DNA of 64,000 nt. It comes from Nitrosomonas sp. Nm51 (GTDB taxonomy: Bacteria > Pseudomonadota > Gammaproteobacteria > Burkholderiales > Nitrosomonadaceae). Below, one piece after another: positions 12,827 through 29,005 of this stretch. The notes beneath the pieces are model-generated. The model saw nothing but the letters and a program-made list of their open reading frames with translations. It did not search any database and had not been told where the DNA came from. How positions within the stretch are numbered: position 1 is the stretch's first letter; the number at the start of each line of letters is the position of its first letter. The stretch is taken from the NCBI RefSeq assembly GCF_900111165.1, contig NZ_FOGH01000007.1:1-64000 (forward strand). The letters are read 5' to 3'. A program made the translations under genes and the position numbers.

Positions 12827-13756
12827 TCAATGCGTATCAATTTTTTTGGTATTTTCTGCATGGTCATGATTGTGAAGCTTGCTGTCAAGCGGATGTGAAT
12901 GAATCAGATTGCCATGCCGGTGAAAATTGGCCTGCAAGGCGATTTTTTCCCGGATATGTCTGATTAAAACAGCAAAACAAAATATCATGGCGCCAAACAA
13001 TACAATCGTTGCACCCGAGGAAACATTAAAAAAATAGCTCAAAAACATACCGCCGGCTCCGATCATAACGCCTATTGCGACAGAAAATAGCTGCATCATA
13101 CTGAACCGGTCTGTCAGCATGCGTGCTGTCATTGCCGGCATAATTAAAGCAGCCGCGATCATCGTTACACCAACAATGTTCATTGCAACAATGACGGATA
13201 ATGTGAGCAACAAGGAAAAAAGTAATTGCAGCGCCCCGGTTCTAATGCCGAAAACCTGCGCTGCTTCCTGATCAAATGTGGCAAAAAGCAGCGGCCTGTA
13301 TGAAAAGAATATGATGATTATTGTAGCCGCAGTAACCAGTCCGATAATCATCAAATCGTTGTCTGTTATTCCCAGAATATTGCCGAATAATGCTGCCTCG
13401 AGGCTTTTGTTTAGATTGCGCTGCTGGCTGATGATCGCCACGCCGAGCGCAAAAATGGCGGTAGTAACAATACCGATAGCTGCATCTGATTTGATCTTTC
13501 TGTTTTTTGTCAGCTGGTTGATCATTAATGCCGCAAACAGACCCATAACGCCGGCGCCAATATAAAAATTGAAATTGAGTACGAAGCCGACCACCGCGCC
13601 GCCAAACGCGGCGTGAGACAAGCCGTGGCCGACGTAACTCATGCCGCGCAGCACAACATGCACCCCAACCAATCCACATAAAGCGCCAACCAAAACAGCA
13701 GCTATCAGGCCATGCCGGAAAAATTCGTAATACAACGGTTCGAGAAAAAGTTGCAT
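12827..13756 (-). CDS. Metal ABC transporter permease, ZnuB/MntB type
   Basis: This 309-residue inner-membrane protein has about eight hydrophobic segments. It shows the family pattern of manganese/zinc/iron ABC-3 permeases: an N-terminal GALCGLVGVHVVLRGMSYVGHGLSHAAFGG-like segment (G-M-S-Y-V-G-H-x-L-S-H-A) and the cytoplasmic coupling region around FGIRTGALQ. The C-terminus is a histidine-rich tail (HSHPLD, HNHDH) that may bind metal. It is the last gene of the minus-strand run ureE, binding protein, ATPase, permease. The metal cannot be fixed from this subunit. Confidence 0.9.
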   Translation of the reverse strand: MQLFLEPLYYEFFRHGLIAAVLVGALCGLVGVHVVLRGMSYVGHGLSHAAFGGAVVGFVLNFNFYIGAGVMGLFAALMINQLTKNRKIKSDAAIGIVTTAIFALGVAIISQQRNLNKSLEAALFGNILGITDNDLMIIGLVTAATIIIIFFSYRPLLFATFDQEAAQVFGIRTGALQLLFSLLLTLSVIVAMNIVGVTMIAAALIMPAMTARMLTDRFSMMQLFSVAIGVMIGAGGMFLSYFFNVSSGATIVLFGAMIFCFAVLIRHIREKIALQANFHRHGNLIHSHPLDSKLHNHDHAENTKKIDTH

Positions 13757-13763
13757 TGATGCG

Positions 13764-14549
13764 TTACATTGTGTGATTGAATTTTAGTGGCGTGCTGTTG
13801 GCGATTAGATGATAGTCTCCGTGCTTGATGATGATAATGTCGCTGCCATAGGTTTTGGTGAGAATATCGTTGGTAAAAATATCACGCGGCCGGCCTTCCG
13901 CGACGATACCGTTGTTAAAACAAATCACCCGGGGCAAATGAGAGGCAACTGCATTTAAATCATGCGTTGTCAATATGATGGTCATGCCTTGGTTGCTGAT
14001 ATCGCCCAGCAGATGGAGAACTTCATGCTGCGTTTTGATATCCACACCGGAAGTTGGTTCATCAAGTACTAAAAGCTTAGGGTTATTGATCAAAGCGCGC
14101 GCTAGAAACGCGCGCTGGCGTTGTCCGCCGGACGTATGCGCAATATGCTGGCGCAGGCAGTTATAAATTCCCAGTTTCGCGGCCAGGTCCTCAACACGCG
14201 CACGCTCCGCTTTGCTTTGCCATGGCAACAAGCGCCTGCCGGGATAGAGCCCCATCATAATGACATCTTCCACGGTAACCGGAAAGCTCCAGTCAACGCT
14301 TTCCAGTTGTGGAATATAACCGATTTTTTTGTTACGGACTTGTTCGACCGGTTGGCCATTCAATAAGACCCGGCCACAAAATACCGTTTGCGCGCCCAGA
14401 ATCGTTTTAAGCAAGGTTGTTTTTCCGCATCCGGTTGGACCGACTATACCGACAAACTGACCCGATTCTATTTGAAGCGATAAACGCGTAAAAACGACAT
14501 TATTCTCATAACTCGTTGTGACATTGATCAATTGAATGGCAGGGGGCAT
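13764..14549 (-). CDS. Metal ABC transporter ATP-binding protein, ZnuC/MntA type
   Basis: This 261-residue ATPase powers the adjacent permease. The Walker A motif is GPTGCGKTTLLK near residue 36, the ABC signature is SGGQRQRAFLARAL (HTSGGQ), and Walker B is LLVLDEPTSGVD. The switch histidine is in LTTHDLNAV. Two bases of Walker spacing are ordinary for the zinc/manganese family. It lies between the permease (7-base gap) and the binding-protein gene (8-base gap), so the three are clearly one transcript. Confidence 0.94.
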   Translation of the reverse strand: MPPAIQLINVTTSYENNVVFTRLSLQIESGQFVGIVGPTGCGKTTLLKTILGAQTVFCGRVLLNGQPVEQVRNKKIGYIPQLESVDWSFPVTVEDVIMMGLYPGRRLLPWQSKAERARVEDLAAKLGIYNCLRQHIAHTSGGQRQRAFLARALINNPKLLVLDEPTSGVDIKTQHEVLHLLGDISNQGMTIILTTHDLNAVASHLPRVICFNNGIVAEGRPRDIFTNDILTKTYGSDIIIIKHGDYHLIANSTPLKFNHTM

Positions 14550-14557
14550 CCTGCAGA

Positions 14558-15526
14558 TTAATCAAGCAGGTTACCGGCATCTACATGACTTGCGCAGGCG
14601 CTGTCGCCGCCTAACGCCTCAGTCATGATTTCGATGTTGTTGACCATCATGCCGATAAATGAATGGTTGGGTTTTTCCGGTAATTCATCGTCCGACAGTT
14701 CGTCTACAAACCTGGCGCCCGATTCACGGGCGATCTGTTCCATAATTTTGCTGGGAAAAACCTCTGACCCGAAAATTGCCGGAATTTTTTCACGTTTGAT
14801 CTGTTCGATGATATGCACAATATCGCGTGGGCCGGGTTCGGTGAAACTTGCAGGCTGTATTGCCGCGATAACTTCCATTCCGTAGCGGGGCGCGAAATAG
14901 GCGAACGAATCATGATAGGTCACCAGCTTGCGGCTGTTTTTTGGAATGGTGTTGACACACGCAAAGATAGCCTGGTCAAGCTGTGTCAACTTGGCTATGT
15001 AGGTTGATGCATTTGCTGCATAAATATCGGCATGCCGGGGATCATGTTCAGCCAAGCGGTCACGGATGATCTCCACATATCGTATTGTCAGCGCAATATT
15101 CGGCCAAAGGTGGGGATTGGGGTTGCCATGTTCTTTGGGAAAACTGAAATCATACTGCCATTCTTCCTCGGGCAGCGTTTCGTTCGCCAGGCGTATAATC
15201 GGTGTACCGGGTTTTTTTACTTTTTCGGCCAGTTTAATTGTTGGCACTTCGAGACTCATGCCGTTAACGAAAATAATATCTGCATGCGCCAACGTTTTTG
15301 CATCAGTCGGTACAGGTTCAAATGTATGCGAATCCATTCCATTTGGAACAATGCCGGAAACTGTAACCAGTGGACCGCCAATATTTTCTACAATATTGGT
15401 TATCGGCGGTACGGTCGTCGCAATACGCAGTATCTTTTCAGTTTTTTCAGCATGCGCCAGGCTTGAAGTCAGTACGAGTGCCGCAAAAAATATAAATATT
15501 GTGTCCGCTAACGACAGCTTTTTCAT
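14558..15526 (-). CDS. Periplasmic metal-binding protein of the ABC transporter (ZnuA/MntC type)
   Basis: This 322-residue exported protein begins with a signal peptide ending AHA near residue 26. It belongs to the cluster 9 (A-I) metal-binding proteins. Likely ligands are the His in GMDSHTFEP, the His in NPHLWPN and the His in TYHDSFAYF. A third histidine at the last position, rather than the glutamate of manganese proteins, is the zinc-type pattern. The acidic, histidine-rich loop of classical ZnuA is absent. It sits directly behind ureE, which raises the possibility that the system delivers metal for urease. That is inference; the ligand pattern favours zinc. Confidence 0.9.
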   Translation of the reverse strand: MKKLSLADTIFIFFAALVLTSSLAHAEKTEKILRIATTVPPITNIVENIGGPLVTVSGIVPNGMDSHTFEPVPTDAKTLAHADIIFVNGMSLEVPTIKLAEKVKKPGTPIIRLANETLPEEEWQYDFSFPKEHGNPNPHLWPNIALTIRYVEIIRDRLAEHDPRHADIYAANASTYIAKLTQLDQAIFACVNTIPKNSRKLVTYHDSFAYFAPRYGMEVIAAIQPASFTEPGPRDIVHIIEQIKREKIPAIFGSEVFPSKIMEQIARESGARFVDELSDDELPEKPNHSFIGMMVNNIEIMTEALGGDSACASHVDAGNLLD

Positions 15527-15535
15527 GTGAATATA

Positions 15536-16069
15536 TTAGTGTTTTTCAGTTGCGCGGTGTATCTTCTGCCGCGCGGGGATCGGCGCCAGCGGTTCGTGTG
15601 TATGACTATGACTGTGGCCATGATGATGTTCGCCGTGATGGTGGTGGCCCGAACTGTAAGCGCCGGATTCCGGTTCGAATTGTGCTGATTCTTCAACGAC
15701 TGTCGCACCGAGGCCTTCCAGCATTTCTTTCAGCACACTATCCTGATAGATTCGCAAAAATCCATCCGCCACCTGGGTGACGGTATGCCGATTACCAAGA
15801 TGAAAAGCGCAGCGCAGCAGGTCAAGCGCACAATTACATGTGATGCGATACGTGGGCTCCTCGGCGGATATGATTTCAACAACCTTGCCATCCTCACTGC
15901 TGAGCAGGTCGTGATTATTTAAAACCGTGCCCCGTTGCGTAAAAATGGCCACTTCCTCGCCCGAATCCAGTGTGGTTCGCAAGCGGCTGTTCACACGTAA
16001 CTCATAAGGCAGGACCAGGCGCGCATAGACTGAATCAGCGTGCGAAACTTTCGTATTTAATATGAGCAT
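15536..16069 (-). CDS. ureE: Urease accessory protein UreE (nickel metallochaperone)
   Basis: This 177-residue cytosolic chaperone delivers nickel to the urease apoenzyme through the UreD-F-G complex. The N-terminal peptide-binding-like domain includes LRVNSRLRTTLDSGEEVAIF. The metal-binding domain includes HLGNRHTVTQV, the conserved UreE histidine. The C-terminus is extremely histidine-rich (HHHHGEHHHGHSHSHTH, residues about 141-158), a nickel store. The gene is separated from the other ure genes, lies on the opposite strand and heads an operon with a metal ABC transporter 9 bases downstream. It completes the accessory set ureD, F and G found at 19-24 kb. Confidence 0.95.
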   Translation of the reverse strand: MLILNTKVSHADSVYARLVLPYELRVNSRLRTTLDSGEEVAIFTQRGTVLNNHDLLSSEDGKVVEIISAEEPTYRITCNCALDLLRCAFHLGNRHTVTQVADGFLRIYQDSVLKEMLEGLGATVVEESAQFEPESGAYSSGHHHHGEHHHGHSHSHTHEPLAPIPARQKIHRATEKH

Positions 16070-16126
16070 TGTTATTCCTTATTCGATTCCTTAAATACGT
16101 TTATTTACGTTTACTTGCTCTTGCTG

Positions 16127-16576
16127 TCATTCTGCTGTTTTGGGAATGACCAGAACCGGAACTGTCGCCATTCTAAGAACTTTCTGAACGGTGCTGCCGA
16201 TAAATAAACTGCCCAGCGCACCTCTGCCCTGACCGGTCATAACAATCATATCAATCGCATCGTCTTTTGCATATGTGCAAATTTCAGATGCAACATCTTC
16301 GTCACATACTACGACATCAGTTTTTATGTTTGTACCGGTAAAAAATTGATTGGCAATGGATTCGAGTTTTTCTTTTGTTTGTTCCAGAACCTTCTCCCGG
16401 TACTCCTGAATAACGCCCGGGTCCGGCATTTGTTTCAACAGATCGGGCGGGACATCACCCATTTGCAGAATACTTAAAAGTGTAATCTGATTTTCCTTCA
16501 TTTTTGCTGCATAGGTCAGGGCAGCAAACGACACATCGGAGAAATCTGTAGTAACCAATACCTTTTTAGATTCCAT
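16127..16576 (-). CDS. Universal stress protein, UspA family
   Basis: A protein of about 149 residues with the Usp fold, starting MESKKVLVTTDFSD. The ATP-binding motif GQGRGALGSLFIGST fits G-2x-G-9x-G(S/T). It ends with the typical strand VPVLVIPK. I place the start at the ATG 16576-16574. A GAAGAGG ribosome binding site lies about 10 bases upstream. A TTG at 16585 in the same frame is too close to that site. It is the second Usp in the window, only distantly similar to the one at 10269, and is transcribed toward ureE. Confidence 0.87.
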   Translation of the reverse strand: MESKKVLVTTDFSDVSFAALTYAAKMKENQITLLSILQMGDVPPDLLKQMPDPGVIQEYREKVLEQTKEKLESIANQFFTGTNIKTDVVVCDEDVASEICTYAKDDAIDMIVMTGQGRGALGSLFIGSTVQKVLRMATVPVLVIPKTAE

Positions 16577-17599
16577 CTCAGGCAAACCTCTTCAATTAAT
16601 TGAAAATGCAGATCGTTCAAACATCGTTGCTCGCTGTTATCGTTGTTCGGGATTTCTGACGGCAGCGATGTTTAATGCAAAACGCCCCCCACGCCGGTTA
16701 CCCGTAATTTCTTTTGTCACTAGACCGCAGTCATTCAAGTTACCGGCAAGCAGATCATTGCTACGATGGTCTGCTGCCAAGAAGGCTATTGAGGGCCGTT
16801 CTCAATTAGTGGACTGTTTTTGCCGGTATCCATTTTCCATTTGGGGTCTCGGCAAGCCGGAGTACGCATGGTGTATAGCCGATCCAGCTCTGCACAAACA
16901 AACGATCCCGGCGTCATCTCAGGAGCAACCGAAGCAATTCACTCATCGGGAACACCCCTAGTAGACTTCAACTCGCATAAAACTGTCAATACTTTCTGAA
17001 CACACACATGCAGCCGGAAAATCAGATTTTTGATCTTTCGAGTTTCCGGTATGCGGATATTTCAACTTAACTATCTGTAGTTGGCAATCACCGGCGCAAA
17101 TTTCTAATGGTTTTTCTTAGATAAAAATAAAAATTCCCCTGATAAAAAAATAAAAGTCCCCCCGAGTTGAAAACAAAACATTCCCTATTGGTAGAAGATC
17201 GCCAGCCAGCTTACTATCTATCAGGGTTGCGATCTGTATCCGTTTTCCGGAGAAATTTGCAAAAAATATATAAACGCGGGGTGTTAACAATCAATGAATT
17301 ATTTCCGGTGTCCCTGAAATTATTCACTCGCGCTGGTGTGACGTCTGTTTCGTTTTATGAAACGGGTAACTGAACTGAAATGATGTATGATACGAAAATC
17401 GAAATGAAGAAATGCGCAAAGCTCAACTGCTCCTTTTGCTTGATCAAATCCGCAATCCAGGCAGAAAAACAATCGATTTAAAATTGATGAATGCTTCAAA
17501 GCTTTAAAAGTTTTTCCGGCAGAATTTAGCATTCTGTTTTTATTAAAATAATAAATAGGCCGCATGTCATTTGTCGTCAAAAAAGTGGGAGATACGTGA
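16577..17599. other. 1.0-kb intergenic region before the porin gene
   Basis: I see no supportable gene. A 97-codon frame (16668-16961) has no domain, signal or ribosome binding site. The region contains GAACACCCCTAGT at 16950-16962 and a weak stem around 17018-17051 (CCGGAAA with TTTCCGG). It turns AT-rich toward the porin, which fits a regulatory region. A decayed gene cannot be excluded. Confidence 0.4.
16950..16962. promoter_or_regulatory. GAACACCCCTAGT motif, copy 1
   Basis: The motif is nearly identical to GAACACCCCCTAGT at 43410-43423 upstream of a giant DUF4347 gene. It could be a shared operator. The regulator is unknown; the NarL-type proteins at 11-13 kb are possible candidates. 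Confidence 0.3.
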
Positions 17600-19235: not shown

Positions 19236-20219
19236 ATGTCTATTCTTCCCTATACACAAAAAAATGCAAAAGCAGATGCCTCAATTTCATCAATAGGAAA
19301 TATCAACAATCGTAAGAAGCTGCCAGGAACCAGTCAGTCGGAACCGGCGGTTCAGACGCAAAATGAATCTGCATTGCCGGCTTCAGAGATAAAACCGGAT
19401 GCGAGCATTTCACTGACGTTCGATAAACAAGCAGGGAAGTGCCGCCTGGCGTCGCGCCGGCATTTTGGGCAGTTGTATGTGCAAAAACCTTTTTATCCTG
19501 AAGGGCCGGACGTGTGTCATGTAGTGCTGGTTCATCCGCCCGGAGGGGTGGTCGGAGGCGACAGGCTGGAAATTGCCAGCCATGTCGGCGCAGATGCCAG
19601 TGTGCAAATAACGACACCGGGCGCGGCAAAGTGGTATAAGTCCAACGGCCGTATCTCTTTTCAGAACGTGGCGATTGACGTAAAAACCGGTGCAACGATG
19701 GAATGGTTGCCGCAGGAGACGATATTTTTTGACGACGCGCAAGTAGAGCTTGCTCAAAGCATCAATCTGGAAAAGGATTCAATCTATATCGGTTGTGAGA
19801 TTTTTTGCCTTGGCCGCACCGCTTTTGGCGAATCGTTCAATTCCGGGCGAATCAGGCAGAAAGTAACCATTCAACGCGAAAATCAATTAATCTGGTATGA
19901 GCAGCTCAATCTGCATGGTGGCAGCAAGGCGATGCGCAGTCCGCTCATTATGGCAGATAAAACGGTTTGCGCGACACTGCTGGCTGCGAGCAATTCGTTA
20001 CACGCCGGCGATTTAATTAACGCACTGCGCAGTCAGGCGGCCGACATCGATAACGGCGACGGGATGCTGGGTGTCTCGCAGGTAAAATCAGTGATCGTGG
20101 CGCGTTATCTGGGCAACTCAAGTGAAGTTGCGCGTGCGGTGATGTTAAAACTCTGGGATGTGCTGCGGCCTGCGTTACTGGGGCGCGCAGCACAAGTCCC
20201 GCGCATGTGGAATACATAG
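19236..20219 (+). CDS. ureD: Urease accessory protein UreD
   Basis: This 327-residue protein is the scaffold that binds urease apoenzyme with UreF and UreG during nickel insertion. Family motifs are visible: VVLVHPPGGVVGGDRL, TPGAAKWYKS and EWLPQETIFFD. It is about 45 residues longer than usual at the N-terminus, a Ser/Asn/Ala-rich stretch without a signal. A later start is possible, but no good ribosome binding site was seen at either place. It is the first of the ureDABCFG run. Confidence 0.93.
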   Translation: MSILPYTQKNAKADASISSIGNINNRKKLPGTSQSEPAVQTQNESALPASEIKPDASISLTFDKQAGKCRLASRRHFGQLYVQKPFYPEGPDVCHVVLVHPPGGVVGGDRLEIASHVGADASVQITTPGAAKWYKSNGRISFQNVAIDVKTGATMEWLPQETIFFDDAQVELAQSINLEKDSIYIGCEIFCLGRTAFGESFNSGRIRQKVTIQRENQLIWYEQLNLHGGSKAMRSPLIMADKTVCATLLAASNSLHAGDLINALRSQAADIDNGDGMLGVSQVKSVIVARYLGNSSEVARAVMLKLWDVLRPALLGRAAQVPRMWNT

Positions 20220-20300
20220 TAAAACGATAGCGGCAGGTGGGTAATCACAGTATTTGTTACAGGAAAGCTTTTTTAATTATTTGTTACTGAGGAGAAAACC

Positions 20301-20603
20301 ATGGATCTAACCCCAAGAGAAAAAGATAAACTTCAGATATTTACTGCAGGATTGCTTGCAGAAAGACGCAAGGCGCGCGGGGTCAAGCTCAATTATCCCG
20401 AAGCGATCGCACTGATTACCTGTTCGGTGCTGGAAGGCGCGCGCGATGGGCGCACAGTCGCCGAACTCATGTCGGAGGGTGCGCGCGTTTTAACCCGCGC
20501 GGACGTCATGGAGGGCGTTCCTGAAATGATTCACGACATTCAGGTTGAAGCAACTTTCCCGGATGGTACTAAACTGGTCACCGTTCACAACCCGATTGCT
20601 TAA
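20301..20603 (+). CDS. ureA: Urease gamma subunit
   Basis: This 100-residue protein is the smallest of the three structural urease subunits. [29 protein letters not shown] and the C-terminal VTVHNPI are diagnostic. A strong GAGGAGAA ribosome binding site precedes the ATG. Separate ureA and ureB genes are the common bacterial arrangement. It is followed 20 bases later by ureB. Confidence 0.97.
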
Positions 20604-20623
20604 TATTCTAAGGAGATACACGC

Positions 20624-20953
20624 ATGATTCCAGGAGAGACAATCATTGAAGCGGGTAACATTCAATTAAACGTTGGCCGCAAAACAAAAACAATCAAGGT
20701 GCGCAATGCCGGGGACAGGCCGGTGCAGGTCGGGTCACATTTCCATTTTTATGAAGTCAATTCAGCACTCAGTTTCGAACGAGAAGAAGCATATGGTATG
20801 CGGCTTAATATTATGGCAGGTACGGCAATTCGTTTTGAGCCGGGTCAGGAGCGTACGGTTGAGCTGGTCAACCTTGCCGGAAGCAAAATAGTGTATGGCT
20901 TTAACCAGAAAGTGATGGGGTCATTGACTCAGAAAGGTCATAGACTTGCATAA
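20624..20953 (+). CDS. ureB: Urease beta subunit
   Basis: This 109-residue structural subunit packs against UreC. Diagnostic segments are [18 protein letters not shown] and [22 protein letters not shown] lies in front of the ATG. It overlaps nothing and is 35 bases ahead of ureC. Confidence 0.97.
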
Positions 20954-20988
20954 TCATAGCCAGTTTTTTTATTCGAAGGAGATTAAAC

Positions 20989-22695
20989 ATGAGTTTTGAA
21001 ATTTCTCGACAGGCTTATGCAGAAATGATGGGGCCGACAACTGGTGACCGCATCCGCCTGGCCGATACCGAATTATTCATTGAAATTGAAAACGATTTCA
21101 CTACATACGGTGAAGAGGTCAAATTTGGTGGCGGCAAGGTCATTCGTGACGGCATGGGACAGTCACAACGTGCTCATGAGAATGTCATGGATACCGTAAT
21201 CACGAATGCGACAATTATAGATTATTGGGGAATTATCAAAGCCGATATCGGCATTAAAAACGGAAAAATAGCGAATATTGGCAAAGCAGGTAACCCCGAT
21301 ATCCAGTCAGGGGTAACTATGGCGATAGGGGCTGCTACCGAAGCAATTGCGGGTGAAGGCATGATTGTTACGGCTGGTGCTTTAGATGTCCACATACATT
21401 TCATCTGCCCGCAACAAGAAGAAGACGCCATGATGAACGGAATTACCACCATGCTGGGTGGCGGCACCGGACCTGCGGCAGGGACGAACGCAACCACCTG
21501 TACGCCTGGGCCATGGCATATTCAATCCATGCTGCGCGCTTCTGACGGCATGGTCATGAATACCGGTTTCTTCGGAAAAGGCAATGTCAGCGTACCGAAG
21601 CCAAACGAAGAACAGGTGCTTGCCGGCGCATGCGGATTAAAGTTGCATGAGGACTGGGGTACGACTTACGGCGCAATTGATAATTGCCTGTCTGTCGCCG
21701 ATAAAATGGACGTGCAGGTCGCCATTCATACCGATACGATTAATGAGGGCGGTTATCTCGAAAATACGATTAGCGCTTTCAAAGATAGAACGATTCATAC
21801 TTTCCATACCGAAGGCGCGGGTGGCGGACACGCGCCGGACATTATGAAAGTGGTGGAACTTGAAAATGTATTGCCGTCATCGACCAATCCGACACGCCCT
21901 TATACCCGCAATACACTGGATGAGCATCTGGATATGCTGATGGTATGCCACCATTTGCATGCAAATATTCCTGAAGACGTGGCATTTGCCGAGTCGCGGA
22001 TTCGTAAGGAAACAATCGCGGCAGAGGATATTTTGCATGATATCGGCGCCATTTCCATGATGGCCTCCGATTCTCAAGCCATGGGACGTATCGGTGAAGT
22101 TGTTACACGCACCTGGCAAACCGCGCACAAAATGAAAGTACAGCGCGGTGCACTCAAGGAAGATTCAGCAAGAAATGATAATTTCAGAGTCAAACGGTAT
22201 ATTGCCAAATACACGATCAACCCGGCGATATGCCATGGTATTTCGCATGCGGTAGGGTCGATTGAAGTCGGCAAATATGCTGACCTTGTTATCTGGAGAC
22301 CCGCACATTTCGGTGTCAAGCCTTCAGTGATTCTGAAGGGCGGTATGATTGCAGCCGCGCTCATGGGTGATCCAAACGCATCAATTCCAACGCCGCAGCC
22401 TGTGCATTACCGGTATATGTTTGGCGCCTATGGGTCTGCGCTTAAAAACACCTGCTATACCTTTGTTTCAGAAGCTTCCCTGGCAGCAGGCCTGGTTGAA
22501 CAGCTAAAGGCCGACAAGCCGCTGATAGCTGTCAAAAATACGCGCGGTTTGCGCAAGAAAGATATGATTCATAACGATGCGACACCTAAAATGGAAATTG
22601 ATCCAGAAACATATGAAGTACGCGCTGACGGGGAGCTATTGACGTGCGAACCGGCGGAAACGCTGCCGATGGCGCAGCGTTACTTTTTATTCTAA
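20989..22695 (+). CDS. ureC: Urease alpha subunit (catalytic)
   Basis: This 568-residue catalytic subunit hydrolyses urea to ammonia and carbamate at a di-nickel site. Nickel-ligand histidines H135 and H137 lie in VHIHFICP, and the carbamylated lysine is K218 in GLKLHEDWG. Further active-site segments are HTDTINEGG and [12 protein letters not shown]. The flap cysteine and histidine are C320 and H321 (MVCHHLH). All expected residues are present and the length is normal. The ribosome binding site is AAGGAG. Confidence 0.98.
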
Positions 22696-22717
22696 AACAA
22701 TTCCACGATGTTTTTCG

Positions 22718-22749
22718 GTAAAAGAAGGATTTCCAACTCTTTCTTTTAC
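22718..22749 (+). terminator. Hairpin after ureC
   Basis: Nine-base arms GTAAAAGAA (22718-22726) and TTCTTTTAC (22741-22749) pair perfectly around a 14-base loop. No T-run follows. It may attenuate transcription or protect the structural-subunit mRNA from decay, since ureF and ureG continue 245 bases further on. The 299-base gap itself has no supportable gene. Confidence 0.4.
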
Positions 22750-22994
22750 TGGATTCTGATTCGTGGCAATAGTTTTATTTTATCCGGGATTCTGGATAAA
22801 TAAGTTTGAAGGAACAGATACCAAATGCGTTGCGAAGCCAAAAACAGGCGCCAGGCAGCAACGCATGCCATTGTTCACATACCGGGGAACTACAGGTAAT
22901 CACGCAAATTGTGGCTGGTTGCTGGTTAGAAATTTCAAACCCGGCAATGACTGTTTGATAATCATCCAAACGCATATTAATACGTAAACAAAAA

Positions 22995-23684
22995 ATGATA
23001 GGTGAAAGACAACCCGCTGAATTGCTCAGTTTGATGCACCTGGCAAGCCCATCGTTGCCGATTGGCGCTTATACTTACTCACAAGGACTGGAAGCGGCGA
23101 TAGAGACCGGTCAAATCGCAAACGAAGAATCTGCGCGCGCCTGGATTAAAGAATCTTTATCCGTCGTTGCTGATTTTGAAGCGCCTGTTTTCTGGCGTCT
23201 GTTGCACGCATTTGCAAACAAGAATGAAGCGGCGGTTTCACACTGGACGCAATTGTTTCTTGCAGCCCGCGACACGCAAGAATTCCGGGCTGAGACTATA
23301 CAGATGGGGTATTCACTTAGCAGGCTGGTATTTGATTTGAACATTGCAGACGAATCACTGCAATCAATGATGGCGCGGCAGACGGAAGTTCCCCTGCCGA
23401 CAGCGTTTGCCTGTGCGGCTGTGGCATTGAAGCTGTCACATGAAGCCGCTCTATTAGGCCTGTTATTTTCGATCGTAGAAAATCAGGTGCTCGTATGCGT
23501 TAAATCCATACCGCTTGGGCAAGTTTCAGGCCAACGCCTGCTGTTGTCGCTGCATTCGGAAATAGAAATGGCGGCTGAGCAGGTAAAGCGGCTCGAGGAT
23601 GATGCGCTTTCCAACTGGGCGCCCGGTTTGTCGATATTGTCGATGATGCACGAAGTACAATACAGTCGAATTTATCGGTCCTGA
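22995..23684 (+). CDS. ureF: Urease accessory protein UreF
   Basis: This 229-residue protein is part of the UreD-UreF-UreG complex and gates GTP-dependent nickel transfer. Family motifs are LMHLASPSLPIGAYTYSQGLE at the N-terminus and the C-terminal helices around GQVSGQRLLL. The length is typical. The ribosome binding site is weak. It is separated from ureC by about 300 bases with a hairpin, so it could be less strongly expressed than the structural genes. Confidence 0.95.
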   Translation: MIGERQPAELLSLMHLASPSLPIGAYTYSQGLEAAIETGQIANEESARAWIKESLSVVADFEAPVFWRLLHAFANKNEAAVSHWTQLFLAARDTQEFRAETIQMGYSLSRLVFDLNIADESLQSMMARQTEVPLPTAFACAAVALKLSHEAALLGLLFSIVENQVLVCVKSIPLGQVSGQRLLLSLHSEIEMAAEQVKRLEDDALSNWAPGLSILSMMHEVQYSRIYRS

Positions 23685-23710
23685 AACAATAATCTGGAAT
23701 ATTGAATAGC

Positions 23711-24340
23711 ATGGAAAATAAATCTAATCCGCTCCGTGTCGGTATCGGTGGACCGGTTGGTTCCGGCAAAACCGCACTATGCGAGATATTAAGCAAGAAA
23801 ATGCGCGGCAACTATGAAATGGCGGTTATTACAAACGATATTTATACCAAGGAAGATCTTGAGATCCTGCTGCGCGCAGAAGCGCTGCCCGCGGAACGGT
23901 TGATTGGCGTTGAAACCGGTGGCTGTCCGCATACTGCAATCAGAGAGGATGCGTCGATTAATCTCGAAGCAATCTCCCGTATCACCCGGGAGATTCCCAA
24001 CCTGGATCTGGTGCTGGTTGAATCTGGCGGCGATAACCTGGCGTCTACGTTCAGTCCTGAATTATCTGATCTGACCATTTATGTCATTGACGTTGCCGCT
24101 GGAGAAAAAATACCCAGAAAGGGTGGGCCAGGCATTACACGTTCCGCACTGCTGGTTATAAATAAAATTGATCTTGCCCCGTATGTTGGCGCGGATCTGG
24201 ATGTAATGGCGCGCGATGCCAAGCGGATGCGCGGTGACCGGCCATTCGTTTTTACCAATATGCGTACCGGCCAGGGTGTACAGGAAATTATTGATTTTAT
24301 TGTCAAGCAGGGTCTTTTGGAAGAGGTAAAAGCACATTAA
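23711..24340 (+). CDS. ureG: Urease accessory GTPase UreG
   Basis: This 209-residue SIMIBI-class GTPase powers nickel insertion into urease. The P-loop is [11 protein letters not shown]. The invariant nickel-binding CPH motif is in [21 protein letters not shown] and the guanine-specificity motif NKIDL are present. I use the ATG at 23711; a TTG three codons upstream is in frame but has no support. It begins 26 bases after ureF. Confidence 0.97.
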
Positions 24341-24456: not shown

Positions 24457-25440
24457 ATGCAATGGGCAGTGAAAGTAGACATGGCTTTGCCACGTCCAAT
24501 CCGAGTAATATTACGGGGTGTGGGTCAAGTGTTTTTTTGTGGCAACGCTGTTACAGGCCTGGTTTTTTTAGTTGCGCTTTACATCGGTGGCATAACTGCA
24601 GGACTGGCGGCCACTGTTGGCGTGGTAACCAGTACCGTTACGGCATATTTGCTCGGCTTCTCGGAAGATGATATTGACGCCGGACTTTATGGATTTAATG
24701 GCACCCTGGTCGGCCCATGCTTGTTTTTGTTCCTTGAAAATACGCCTTTGTTATGGGTATACGTCGTATTTGCTTCCATTTTATCAAGCGTAGTTCTCGC
24801 GGCTTTGATCAGAATTCTGACACCCTACAAAATACCGGCCTCGACATCGCCTTTCGTTCTGACCTGCTGGATGTTCATGGTTGCAATCTACTCATTTGAC
24901 AGCCTCTCGCCCAGCGCTGTTCTGCCGCCACCAGGCGTGCCCGAAGCGATTGCAAGCACTGATTTGCCTGTCACGGCCTGGCTTGCGTCCATGACGGATG
25001 AAACGGCTGAGCTCTGGTATGTGGCGCTGACCAAAGGAGTTGCAGAGGTCATGTTTGCGGACAATGTGCTGGTTGGTATTTTATTTTTGACCGGTATCGC
25101 GATCACGTCTTGGCGTGGCGCTTTTATGGCGCTTTGCGGAACATTTGTAGGGGTGCTGGTGCCCGTATTACTCGGGGCGGGTCAAAGCTTGATAGAAATG
25201 GGATTATACGCGTTTAATCCGGTGCTGACCATGATGGCGATTGGCTGGGTTTTTCTCAAACCTTCAGCAGGAACAGCTGTTCTGGCTTTGCTGGCCGGTA
25301 TTCTGACTGTCATTTGCCAAGCGGGCCTGGCTAACTTTTTGGCGCCAATCGGTTTGCCCACGTTGACTTTTCCATTCGTACTGACGATGTGGATGTTTTT
25401 GTTCGCTGCATCTGTATCAAAACACTGGTCATCGGAATAA
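24457..25440 (+). CDS. Urea transporter (UT/SLC14 family channel)
   Basis: This 327-residue inner-membrane protein has two homologous halves of five membrane segments. Each half carries the family signature: FNGTLVGPCLFLF and STSPFVLTCW in the first, FNPVLTMMAIG and LTFPFVLTMWMF in the second. Such channels let urea move down its gradient, which urease maintains by hydrolysis. A CCGGAGAT ribosome binding site precedes the ATG. It follows ureG by 116 bases on the same strand and precedes a carbonic anhydrase. Confidence 0.92.
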   Translation: MQWAVKVDMALPRPIRVILRGVGQVFFCGNAVTGLVFLVALYIGGITAGLAATVGVVTSTVTAYLLGFSEDDIDAGLYGFNGTLVGPCLFLFLENTPLLWVYVVFASILSSVVLAALIRILTPYKIPASTSPFVLTCWMFMVAIYSFDSLSPSAVLPPPGVPEAIASTDLPVTAWLASMTDETAELWYVALTKGVAEVMFADNVLVGILFLTGIAITSWRGAFMALCGTFVGVLVPVLLGAGQSLIEMGLYAFNPVLTMMAIGWVFLKPSAGTAVLALLAGILTVICQAGLANFLAPIGLPTLTFPFVLTMWMFLFAASVSKHWSSE

Positions 25441-25463
25441 TTCATAAAGTATCAGGAATTCAA

Positions 25464-26225
25464 ATGCAAAGAAAAAATCTGAATGTTGAAAAGCAACAAA
25501 AAGCGCGGCAAAGGCGCTGGCTACTTAAAATGACAACGGCATCCCTGCTTGGCATGGGCCTGCCGGTTTCGGGGACAGTAAACGCAATATCCGGCATGGT
25601 TAAAATGCCGCCTATACCCGAGAATGTATTAAGTCCGGAAGCAGCCCTCGAGCGTCTAATGAAAGGAAATGAACGCTATGTAACAAATCGCTCAACACCC
25701 TTGAATTTTAAAGATGAGCGTTTGGATTTAGTTAGAGGGCAAAATCCCTTTGCGTGTATTCTGAGTTGCTCGGACTCCCGGGTGAGTCCGGAATTCTGTT
25801 TTGATGAACAGCGTGGGGACTTGTTTGTTGCCCGTGTTGCCGGTAACTATATTACAACAGATTTTATTGCCACCCTTGAATACGCTGCAGCAATTTTGCA
25901 TGTTCCGTTGATCATGGTTCTGGGTCATGAAAACTGCGGAGCCATCAAAGCGGCGATTGATGCAACCGATAATTACGAACAGTTTCCAGGGCATATACAG
26001 ACAATTGCTACAGCATTAACGCCGGCGGTCAGATCTGTACGCAAAACTCCGGATTATGTCGCCAATGACCGATATTTTGACATTGTTAAAAAAAATGTTG
26101 TTCTTAATGTTGAAGAATTAAGGAAACAGCCGCCGATTCTAAGCCGGATGGTCGATGATAAAAAACTTAAGATCGTCGGTGGTGTTTATCATTTAAAAAC
26201 CGGTAAGGTTGAATTGATTTCCTAA
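25464..26225 (+). CDS. Beta-class carbonic anhydrase with Tat-type export signal
   Basis: This 253-residue zinc enzyme interconverts CO2 and bicarbonate. The zinc site and dyad are visible in CSDSRVSPE (Cys, with Asp-Arg dyad) and in GHENCGAIKAA (His and Cys). The N-terminus carries a twin-arginine motif (RQRRWLLKM) followed by a hydrophobic stretch ending near VNA, so the folded, metal-loaded enzyme is probably exported to the periplasm. I use the ATG at 25464 after an AGGA; the frame is open to 25389, but that start overlaps the urea transporter. Beside urease it could trap CO2 released from urea. Confidence 0.9.
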   Translation: MQRKNLNVEKQQKARQRRWLLKMTTASLLGMGLPVSGTVNAISGMVKMPPIPENVLSPEAALERLMKGNERYVTNRSTPLNFKDERLDLVRGQNPFACILSCSDSRVSPEFCFDEQRGDLFVARVAGNYITTDFIATLEYAAAILHVPLIMVLGHENCGAIKAAIDATDNYEQFPGHIQTIATALTPAVRSVRKTPDYVANDRYFDIVKKNVVLNVEELRKQPPILSRMVDDKKLKIVGGVYHLKTGKVELIS

Positions 26226-26290
26226 CCTGTAAATTTATGGCCGGAAAATCAGTGCGTATTGGCAATTATTTACCAACTGCAGGAGTATAA

Positions 26291-29005
26291 GTGTCTACCC
26301 GTTACGTTTTTACAAAGCATTTTGTGCTTTTGTCGCTAACTGGGCTGGTTTTGCTGGGTGTTTTCGTTACGCTGTCATCCACTGCCCTTTTGCAAATTTC
26401 TTTCAATACTTATTTCAACAGGGACTGGAACGAGGGATTTCTGCATCCATTAACGGGATGGGATCATATTGTCGTCATGGTGGCTGTCGGTATCTGGGCG
26501 GCGCAGCTACGCGGTCAGGCACTGTGGATACTGCCGGTTGTATTTGTCAGTGTCATGAGTCTTGGCGGCCTGGCCGGTGCGGCCAGCTATATTATTCCGG
26601 GCGCGGAAGCGATGATTCTTTTATCGTGCTTCACGATCAGTGCATTGATCGTGCGTGGAATACGATTCAGTGCACCAGTCAATGTGATCATTATTTCACT
26701 GTTTGCTTTTTTTCACGGCTACGTCCACGGACAGGAAATCTCCGCATCCGCCAGTCTGGCCTCATACACAGCCGGTTTTGTGTCCGCCACGTTATTGTTA
26801 CATGGTGCAGGCATTCTGATTTCATGGTTGACCGTACTGGCGATTACTTTTTTTATCAGCACCAGTATTAATGCCCAGGAAAAAGGCCTGTCCGCTTATG
26901 CAGATACCGCAAAACCCGGTTCACAAATCAACAAACTGGCGCATGCCGTACTGGAGGAAGTACGCGTTACCGGACGCGCGGATGAACTGACCGGCATCGC
27001 CGACAGCGCTTCACAAGGCAAGGTGGGGCAGGATCAGATCAGATACCGGCCGATGATCCGTCCCGGTGAAGTGCTCGAAACGGTGCCCGGTCTGATTGCA
27101 ACGCAACACAGCGGCGAAGGCAAGGCAAATCAGTTTTTTTTGCGTGGTTTCAATCTGGATCACGGTACCGATTTTCTGACCCGGATTGAAGGCGTGCCGG
27201 TCAATCAACTATCCCATTCGCATGGTCAGGGGTGGACCGACACCAATTTTTTGATTCCCGAGCTTATTGAATCGATTGATTTCAGGAAAGGGAACTATTT
27301 TGCCGACACGGGCGATTTTTCCAGCGCCGGATCGGCCAATATCCGCTATTTCAACCGTTTGCCCGAGAACCTGTTCAGATTCACCGGCGGCAGTTTTGAC
27401 TACTACCGGGGGCTGGCGGCCGGGTCGCATCGACTATTGAAAGGCGATGTCTTGTATGCCGGAGAAATCGTGCACAATGACGGCCCCTGGACCGTCGGAA
27501 ACAACTATCTGAAATTCAACGGTCTGCTTCGATACAGCCGCGAATACGGCAATCACAGCTGGCGTATCACAGCCATGGCGACGCAATCCGACTGGCGGGC
27601 GACCGATCAGATTCCAAGACGCGCGCTTAACCAGGGTTCCGTCGGCCGGTTCGATGCGCTGGATCCGACCGATGGCGGAAACAGCCAGCGCTATGGTCTG
27701 ACAGGTGAATGGCGCATGCAGGGGGAAAACAGCATCACGTCCGTCATGGCGTATGGTATTTATTCCAAGTTGAATCTGTATTCAAACTTTTCTTTTTTTC
27801 TGGATGACAATGAGACGACCAATCCGGCAGGCTGCGCCAGGCTGCGCGGATTGCTGCCTGGAAACCGGGTTTCTTCCGGGTTGTTTCGAACCTGTGGCGA
27901 TCAATTCGGACAGCCGGATGACCGTTGGACGACCGGCTTTGCTGGCAGTCACACGCTGTTTCACAAGATTGGCGCATTCGATGCCGAAACGACGCTGGGC
28001 ATACAGGTACGTAACGATAACATTCAAAATGCCCTGACAAAAACCCATGCGCAAAAAACGGTCGGCATTACTCGTCAGGATACCGTCTGGGTTACCAGTG
28101 TCAGTCCCTATCTTGAAAACAAAATCCACTGGCAGAAATGGTTGCGTACCAGTCTGGGCGTGCGCTTCGACGGTTTTCGTTTTGCAGTCAACAATAGCAA
28201 TATCCAGAAAAACAATGGCACGCGTTACGATGGTCTGGTCAGTCCGAAATTAAGCATCGTATTTGGCCCCTGGGCGGATACCGAGCTGTATCTAAACGGC
28301 GGCCTCGGTTTTCACAGCAACGACGCACGCGGAATCAATACCCGGATCGATCCGGCAAGCGGTGACGCCGTCAGCCGCGCCGATCCGCTTGCGCGCACAT
28401 ACAGTGCTGAAACAGGCATCCGTTCAACCTGGGTACAGGGATTGCAAAGCACGCTGACTGTCTGGTGGATGGATCTCGAGTCCGAACTGGTTTTTGTGGG
28501 GGACGCAGGCACTACCGAAGCAAGCCGGCCGAGCCGGCGCTACGGACTCGAATTCGCCAACTATTATCAGCCGGTGCACTGGCTGACATTTGACGCCGAT
28601 TTCAGTTTTTCGCGTGCGCATTTTCGCGGCGCACTGGCCGGTGAGGGCGATCATGTTCCCAACGCCGTGGAAACGGTCATTGCAGCAGGCGCAACATTTC
28701 ACGATGTGTTTGGCGGGTTCTATGGCGGACCCCGGTTGCGCTACCTTGGGCCGCGCGCGCTGAATGAAGACAATACCAGACGGTCAGACAGTACAATATT
28801 GCTGTCAGCGATGCTGGGGTATGAGATCAGCAAGTCACTGCGCATCCAGGCCGAAGTATTCAACATTCTGAACCGCAAGGATGATGCAATCACGTATTTT
28901 TATACGTCACGCCTGCCGGGAGAGTCCATCGCGGGTATGGATGACTTTCACTTTCATCCCGTCGAGCCGGTGAGCTTCCGGGTGGGGTTTGTCATCAATT
29001 ATTAG
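26291..29005 (+). CDS. HupE/UreJ nickel permease fused to a TonB-dependent receptor
   Basis: This 904-residue open frame joins two families. Residues about 1-190 are a HupE/UreJ permease with about six membrane segments and the signature HPLTGWDHIVVMVAVGIWAA (residues 52-71), plus FAFFHGYVHGQE (138-149). From about 196 it is a TonB-dependent outer-membrane receptor. A TonB-box-like EEVRVTG lies at 222-228, a plug with ETVPGLIATQHSG and FFLRGFNLDHGTDF follows, and then a full barrel ending in VSFRVGFVINY. The junction (TVLAITFFISTSINAQ) looks like a receptor signal peptide overlapping the last permease helix. Cleavage after INAQ would free the receptor. A GTG start follows AGGAG. Position behind the urease genes points to nickel uptake. 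Confidence 0.85.
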   Translation: MSTRYVFTKHFVLLSLTGLVLLGVFVTLSSTALLQISFNTYFNRDWNEGFLHPLTGWDHIVVMVAVGIWAAQLRGQALWILPVVFVSVMSLGGLAGAASYIIPGAEAMILLSCFTISALIVRGIRFSAPVNVIIISLFAFFHGYVHGQEISASASLASYTAGFVSATLLLHGAGILISWLTVLAITFFISTSINAQEKGLSAYADTAKPGSQINKLAHAVLEEVRVTGRADELTGIADSASQGKVGQDQIRYRPMIRPGEVLETVPGLIATQHSGEGKANQFFLRGFNLDHGTDFLTRIEGVPVNQLSHSHGQGWTDTNFLIPELIESIDFRKGNYFADTGDFSSAGSANIRYFNRLPENLFRFTGGSFDYYRGLAAGSHRLLKGDVLYAGEIVHNDGPWTVGNNYLKFNGLLRYSREYGNHSWRITAMATQSDWRATDQIPRRALNQGSVGRFDALDPTDGGNSQRYGLTGEWRMQGENSITSVMAYGIYSKLNLYSNFSFFLDDNETTNPAGCARLRGLLPGNRVSSGLFRTCGDQFGQPDDRWTTGFAGSHTLFHKIGAFDAETTLGIQVRNDNIQNALTKTHAQKTVGITRQDTVWVTSVSPYLENKIHWQKWLRTSLGVRFDGFRFAVNNSNIQKNNGTRYDGLVSPKLSIVFGPWADTELYLNGGLGFHSNDARGINTRIDPASGDAVSRADPLARTYSAETGIRSTWVQGLQSTLTVWWMDLESELVFVGDAGTTEASRPSRRYGLEFANYYQPVHWLTFDADFSFSRAHFRGALAGEGDHVPNAVETVIAAGATFHDVFGGFYGGPRLRYLGPRALNEDNTRRSDSTILLSAMLGYEISKSLRIQAEVFNILNRKDDAITYFYTSRLPGESIAGMDDFHFHPVEPVSFRVGFVINY

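Follow-up and report, generated by a model that had tools for sequence, protein, structure and literature searches.

The window, that is, the whole stretch of 64,000 nucleotides analysed here (Nitrosomonas sp. Nm51, contig NZ_FOGH01000007.1, positions 1 to 64,000), carries a urease gene cluster and, behind it, a single long gene that joins a permease to a receptor. The features are as follows.

12827..15526, minus strand: ABC-3 permease, ATPase and ZnuA-type binding protein, adjoining ureE (metal presumed)
15536..16069, minus strand: ureE with a His-rich tail (Pfam)
19236..24340, plus strand: ureD-A-B-C-F-G (at 19236, 20301, 20624, 20989, 22995 and 23702; UreD and UreC by Pfam, A, B, F and G named by eye, in a gene order common to other loci)
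24457..25440, plus strand: urea transporter (PF03253; Pfam)
25389..26225, plus strand: beta-carbonic anhydrase (PF00484; longest frame, the true start probably being later)
26291..29005, plus strand: fused gene, 904 residues (GTG start; AGGAG at 26281-26285)
26291..26875, plus strand: HupE/UreJ permease half, residues 1-195 including the last helix (Pfam 45-181; positive-inside topology)
26822..26875, plus strand: last hydrophobic helix, residues 178-195 approximately, proposed to serve also as receptor signal peptide (alignment, charge topology)
26873..26878, plus strand: predicted signal peptidase I cut A195/Q196 (residue pattern over 28 aligned fusions)
26876..26956, plus strand: variable disordered linker, residues 196-222 (low pLDDT; raised dN/dS)
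26951..26974, plus strand: LEEVRVTG, a stretch that we take to be TonB-box-like (sequence)
27020..27331, plus strand: receptor plug domain, residues 244-347 (Pfam)
27584..29002, plus strand: receptor beta-barrel, residues 432-904 (Pfam to 859; AlphaFold2 (AF2) model; PDB fold matches)

The fused gene runs in one frame from the GTG at 26291 to the stop at 29003-29005 with no internal stops, and its Shine-Dalgarno sequence AGGAG lies 5 nucleotides upstream of the start codon; in its own genome (G000) it has a single match, at 100% and free of stops. Residues 45-181 of the product match the Pfam family HupE_UreJ (PF04955; E 1.4e-39, 135.9 bits against a cut-off of 23), and both components of a TonB-dependent receptor, the plug (PF07715, residues 244-347, E 2.9e-12) and the barrel (PF00593, residues 432-859, E 4.4e-23), are present above their Pfam cut-offs. 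The residues of the HPxxGxDH and HGxxHGxE motifs (H52, P53, D58, H59, H142, H146 and E149) are invariant in an alignment of 32 rows, and conserved His/Asp/Glu motifs of this kind in the helices are a mark of HupE/UreJ permeases. A preliminary description of this DNA had proposed exactly these two halves, a permease and then a receptor with no stop between them, and both the domain matches and the open frame of 904 residues bear this out. Judged by its domains, one gene really does encode a predicted inner-membrane metal permease joined to a predicted outer-membrane receptor.

Some part of the query was matched in 107 of 125 Nitrosomonadaceae genomes, and the fusion is present in 14 of the 125 (among these, the copies of G057 and G060 are cut by contig ends, that of G053 lies at a contig start, and that of G051 contains a run of N and is short at its 3' end); G042 contains a second query match beyond the listed one. 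From 112 related loci, 80 were kept for analysis, and in 27 of these, from Nitrosomonas and Methylococcales, a single open frame runs across the joint (the receptors of L056 and L081 are shortened, L036 starts at a contig end, and L057, which begins inside the permease, is left out of the 27). An assembly error or frameshift at the joint is ruled out because the same joint is open in these 27 other loci. The preliminary description had suggested looking for the architecture in complete genomes; one of the 27, L050, does come from a complete genome, and the G044 contig C1 that carries a fusion is 3.07 Mb long. The same description had raised the possibility of two separate genes in the relatives with a start codon at the junction; what was found instead is the joint in 27 other loci and no conserved junction start codon. 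The ordinary two-gene arrangement was likewise rejected, as a permease stands beside the receptor in only two small groups of the 80 loci: L054 and L060-L062, where a HupE gene with a different C-terminal domain adjoins a separate receptor, and L091, L105 and L107 of Methylorubrum, where urease genes, ureJ and receptor follow one another, each separate. Around the remaining 45 of the 80 loci, HupE was not found at E 1e-4 in the DNA examined near each locus. A receptor in a CopC operon of N. aestuarii Nm36 (L042, 8001-10178) has no HupE match, and its frame is broken at the former junction.

The order urease, urea transporter, carbonic anhydrase, fusion agrees with the place behind urease and a urea channel that was first noted for the gene, and among nickel enzymes its own genome has a urease and no match to a NiFe hydrogenase. 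(An Rfam match to the 5' ureB sRNA at 21145-21427, minus strand, lies antisense within ureC and may merely reflect conserved coding sequence.) The proposed nickel role draws on this urease linkage, shared by the window, L031, L033 and L112 (genomes G000, G042, G043 and G044), in all of which urease, urea transporter and carbonic anhydrase precede the fusion, and also on the NikR linkage of the unfused receptors. By their coordinates, NikR is no more than 6 kb away from 54 of 67 unfused receptor places, and ureC no more than 20 kb away from 43 of the 67; of the 13 places not near NikR, six are in a genus without it. The identity of NikR itself is backed by an NCBIfam equivalog match above cut-off in both of the two proteins tested. 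The common setting of the unfused Nitrosomonadaceae receptor comprises a ZnuA-type ABC importer, NikR, a urea transporter and urease (among ten loci looked at, L127 does not have this setting; L066 has it as well), and L092 and L093 likewise have NikR next to the receptor (identified by Pfam in L092). Eight of 10 unfused receptors have, close to their start, a NikR-box-like site with at least 10 of 12 matches (p ≤0.012 against shuffles) to a GTATGA-N15-TCATAC-like pattern, whose half-sites we take to be those of NikR; L124, L128 and L066 of this set are close kin, and L120 and L122, of the ten scored, lack the site. Nickel is thus well supported by genomic context as the probable metal of the receptor family, which in Nitrosomonas is likely to admit nickel through the outer membrane for urease.

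At the window gene itself no NikR box was found (best 8 of 12, p 0.81), and 24 of 26 fusions score no more than 9 of 12; the boxes of L038 (11) and L041 (10) were discarded, the site not being common to their neighbours and the L038 genome having no NikR match. No NikR_C match was obtained in the genome of the window or in G042, G043 and G044, all four of which have urease and have kept the ABC binding protein. In L120 and L126, the position that follows the urea transporter is taken up by carbonic anhydrase, NikR and a separate receptor, and in the four genomes the fusion would appear to have replaced this receptor and NikR. NikR absence alone is weak evidence, because 15 of 75 urease genomes also lack it. 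Co-occurrence with nickel enzymes is uninformative: all 14 fused Nitrosomonas genomes have one, but so do 91 of 111 other genomes of the family (Fisher p 0.12). Among further genomes, a set of 21 that includes five unfused loci (L054, L060-L063), 21 of 21 have a nickel enzyme (urease in 18, hydrogenase in 19). For the window copy, nickel is on this context the likely metal. The description of a one-gene nickel acquisition system, in which nickel finds support, is nevertheless too strong in its 'one-gene' part: HupE is not the sole inner-membrane candidate, because a ZnuA-type protein, ATPase and permease adjoin ureE (12827-16069), and this ABC importer, homologues of which occur in the NikR-receptor-urease neighbourhood of relatives, could import nickel across the inner membrane. 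Some 4 kb behind the urease-linked fusion of L031 there are ExbB/ExbD/TonB-like genes (14824-16765; named by eye).

The most serious alternative is that the same cleaved polyprotein supplies copper to ammonia or methane monooxygenase, the urease neighbourhood being incidental or a later co-option. Nitrosomonas and methanotrophs, which are the carriers of the fusion, are users of copper monooxygenases. Only two of the 27 fused loci lie beside urease in the DNA examined around them (L031, L033), thioredoxin and BNR genes follow the fusion in 12 of the 27, with CopC in 10, and L034 and L056 have AmoC upstream of the fusion; these neighbours make copper a live rival, and around 13 of the 27 the DNA examined has neither a urease nor a CopC-type setting. 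G044 contains two fused copies (C1:558316 and C1:1851570), one next to urease, the other next to CopC, that are 98.5% identical over 2.6 kb and nearly identical throughout except in the first helix, so that one metal should explain both; the two copies form a natural test pair. Against copper stand the NikR linkage and NikR-box-like sites of the receptor family, and the observation that only the urease-linked copy is present in G042, G043 and the genome of the window, the BNR gene of the CopC operon being unmatched there. Members of the HupE/UreJ family have, moreover, been shown to carry nickel, with nickel and cobalt branches predicted, according to the portion of text available from PMC2667541, in which neither 'TonB' nor 'fusion' occurs. 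On balance, copper is an unlikely explanation, albeit one that has to be kept in view.

The history of the fusion was examined in a receptor tree of 56 rows, obtained by a quick search with SH-aLRT values only, without bootstrap and with an unsure root. Within it, the fused and re-split receptors form one clade (SH-aLRT 100) in which Nitrosomonas is nested within Methylococcales (SH-aLRT 99 within 100), and five label changes are needed, which we interpret as a single gain plus four splits or losses; broadly the same picture emerges from the permease tree, whose inner support is weak. The fusion most likely evolved once, and by this topology it most probably originated in methanotrophic Methylococcales and was then passed to Nitrosomonas. 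The copies at urease and those at CopC are not sorted into clades of their own, which implies either repeated moves to urease or sequence exchange between copies. The fusions of G000, G042, G043 and G044 are not one clade in the receptor tree, with L032, from a NikR-bearing genome, falling between them. In comparisons of the window with four Nitrosomonas relatives (L031-L034), for which synonymous sites are near saturation, dN/dS is 0.05-0.10 for the permease, 0.05-0.08 for the receptor, 0.10-0.44 for the last helix (17 codons) and 0.15-0.71 for the linker. Purifying selection acts on both the permease and the receptor halves.

How one chain might serve two membranes is suggested by the junction, which was aligned over 28 rows (the 27 fused loci and the window). 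The residue at -1 of the putative cut site is Ala in 27 of 28 rows and Gly in one, that at -3 is Val, Ala, Ile or Leu in all 28 (Ile in the window), and that at +1 is Gln or Glu in 27. The last permease helix had been likened to a receptor signal peptide in the preliminary description, and a signal-peptidase-like end is indeed present in 28 of 28 aligned fusions. A single cut at the junction, also proposed there, is likely, with its position moved by one residue, so that it would fall after Ala195 (SINA/QEKG; codon 26873-26875) rather than at Gln/Glu. Lys or Arg precedes the last helix in 23 of 28 rows but not in the window, and this, like the window's Ile at -3, speaks against the reading. 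The cytoplasmic loops 2, 4 and 6 contain Lys or Arg in 28, 28 and 23 of the 28 rows, the periplasmic loops 3 and 5 in none, and loop 1 in 4; by this positive-inside pattern the receptor is predicted to start in the periplasm. Beyond the cut, the charge of the chain is mixed, with Lys or Arg in 24 of 28 rows but Asp and Glu more numerous. Three separate Methylorubrum UreJ proteins compared end without the extra last helix, and the re-split L054 receptor, which falls within the fused clade of the receptor tree, starts with a signal-peptide-like stretch, ALSIAIFIGSAAHA/Q, closely like the fused helix. The end of the Pfam HupE match was dropped as a sign of a foreign last helix, because the match of a separate UreJ likewise stops short, at position 161 of 179. 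Cleavage by signal peptidase I after A195, yielding permease and receptor, is most likely the processing that the chain undergoes.

A mechanism can be proposed on this basis. HupE would thread into the inner membrane with its N-terminus cytoplasmic, and the last helix (residues 178-195 or so) would enter from the cytoplasmic side, serving as the signal peptide of the receptor. The cut after Ala195 would leave the permease in the inner membrane and free the receptor into the periplasm; the receptor would then fold into the outer membrane and be driven by TonB. Nickel would then pass from outside to the periplasm through the receptor, and from the periplasm to the cytoplasm through HupE and/or the ABC importer, for the urease encoded upstream; in four Nitrosomonas genomes, the window's own included, the fusion would stand where relatives have NikR and a separate receptor. 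The chain thus probably gives rise to two parts of a nickel uptake route feeding urease. The full reading, a cleaved polyprotein with both halves importing nickel for urease and a single origin in methanotrophs, is judged likely, if well short of assured. More tentatively, and with the doubts outweighing the confidence, the gene may be seen as a self-splitting transporter of two membranes, its parts made in equal numbers because the last permease helix doubles as signal peptide, that arose a single time in methanotrophs, reached ammonia oxidizers, and works for nickel (urease) in one place and within a copper-protein operon elsewhere.

The structure models bear on whether the chain is cut at all. 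In the AF2 model of the whole chain the receptor is confident and the permease poor, with pLDDT below 50 in residues 186-227; modelled alone, the permease reaches a mean pLDDT of 81.5, and residues 156-204 form one long helix with no separate seventh span. This continuous last helix, together with the open frame without a stop, would suit an uncut chain, anchored in the inner membrane and bridging to the outer membrane, or else a non-functional joint. However, only some 48 residues separate residue 196 from the plug at 244, a length that fully stretched barely spans a periplasm and would tie up the TonB-box region; moreover, all 28 rows retain the cut motif, and both halves are under purifying selection, so that an uncut or idle product is highly improbable. 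Still less credit is due to the production of two proteins by internal re-initiation at the junction, for which an in-frame ATG 40 to 13 residues before the cut in 13 of 28 rows might speak; these ATGs differ in position and are absent from 15 of 28 rows, the window included, and no junction start codon in any of the 28 rows has a 5-of-6 Shine-Dalgarno match. A sequence search of the PDB with the permease gave no match up to E 1, and the top fold matches of the receptor, which include PqqU/YncD, FoxA, FecA and OprC, do not tell the metal apart. Cobalt (vitamin B12) uptake, to which the predicted cobalt branch of HupE and a weak resemblance of the plug region to BtuB (E ~1e-6) might point, is equally hard to credit given the neighbours seen, which are urease, NikR or CopC genes, and given that no cobalamin or NiCo riboswitch reached gathering score in any of 12 loci or in the window itself, for which reason riboswitch control of the fusion was also dropped.

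Transporters of the inner and outer membranes are normally encoded by separate genes. A precedent for the preferred reading, the cleaved polyprotein, is FbcH, the cytochrome b/c1 precursor of Bradyrhizobium, a single chain that carries an inner-membrane protein first, then an internal signal sequence, then an exported protein. The window gene has the corresponding parts, a single frame and, between its two proteins, an internal signal-like helix with an A/Q site (28-row alignment; export predicted). Both products of FbcH, however, remain in one inner-membrane complex, whereas the second product of the window fusion is predicted to be an outer-membrane barrel. Compared with other HupE/UreJ permeases (PF04955), with which it shares family and His/Asp/Glu motifs, the fusion adds an extra helix and a receptor of about 700 residues. 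Nickel TonB receptors under NikR control are represented by FrpB4 and FecA3 of Helicobacter (PMC11247825, as far as its accessible text extends); the unfused relatives of the window receptor resemble these in adjoining NikR and carrying NikR-box-like sites, but the window receptor lacks an own, separate signal peptide and its genome gives no NikR match; the likeness meant here is one of gene context. Comparable as well are the Ang-HupE/UreJ-2 'anglerases', HupE-superfamily permeases with metal-binding N-terminal domains (PMC12537917, in the part consulted), which like the fusion join a permease to an exported metal-handling domain, but whose extra domain is, in that part of the source, N-terminal, small and not released. 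Behind the CopC operon of L038 there is a HupE_UreJ_2 protein (PF13795; 14142-15281) in which a signal-peptide-like start is followed by HPPGLSS, with similar genes in L039, L043 and L054. The copper-regulated BfrG receptor operon of Bordetella resembles the CopC-linked fusions in placing a TonB receptor in a copper-linked operon; it consists of DUF2946, receptor and PepSY_TM protein, and HupE is not named in the available text (PMC9426467). A fusion of HupE to a TonB receptor was not described among the matches listed from the openly licensed PMC literature, in titles and the starts of abstracts.

If the proposal is true, a conserved two-membrane polyprotein would be a simple way to fix the ratio of permease to receptor, and the whole uptake path would be movable as one gene in nitrifying and methane-oxidizing bacteria. 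The fusion also offers an in-vivo test of a permease helix doubling as a signal peptide. A further arrangement was observed in L043 (6472-7929), L054 (7890-9254) and L061 (7830-9305), where HupE, with an AxA-type helix end, is followed by a further domain, some 280 residues long and unmatched in Pfam, with the common motif FKxY[FY]PDINxTPGxxxLSxGxGLTSPP; these genes perhaps represent a second kind of HupE polyprotein.
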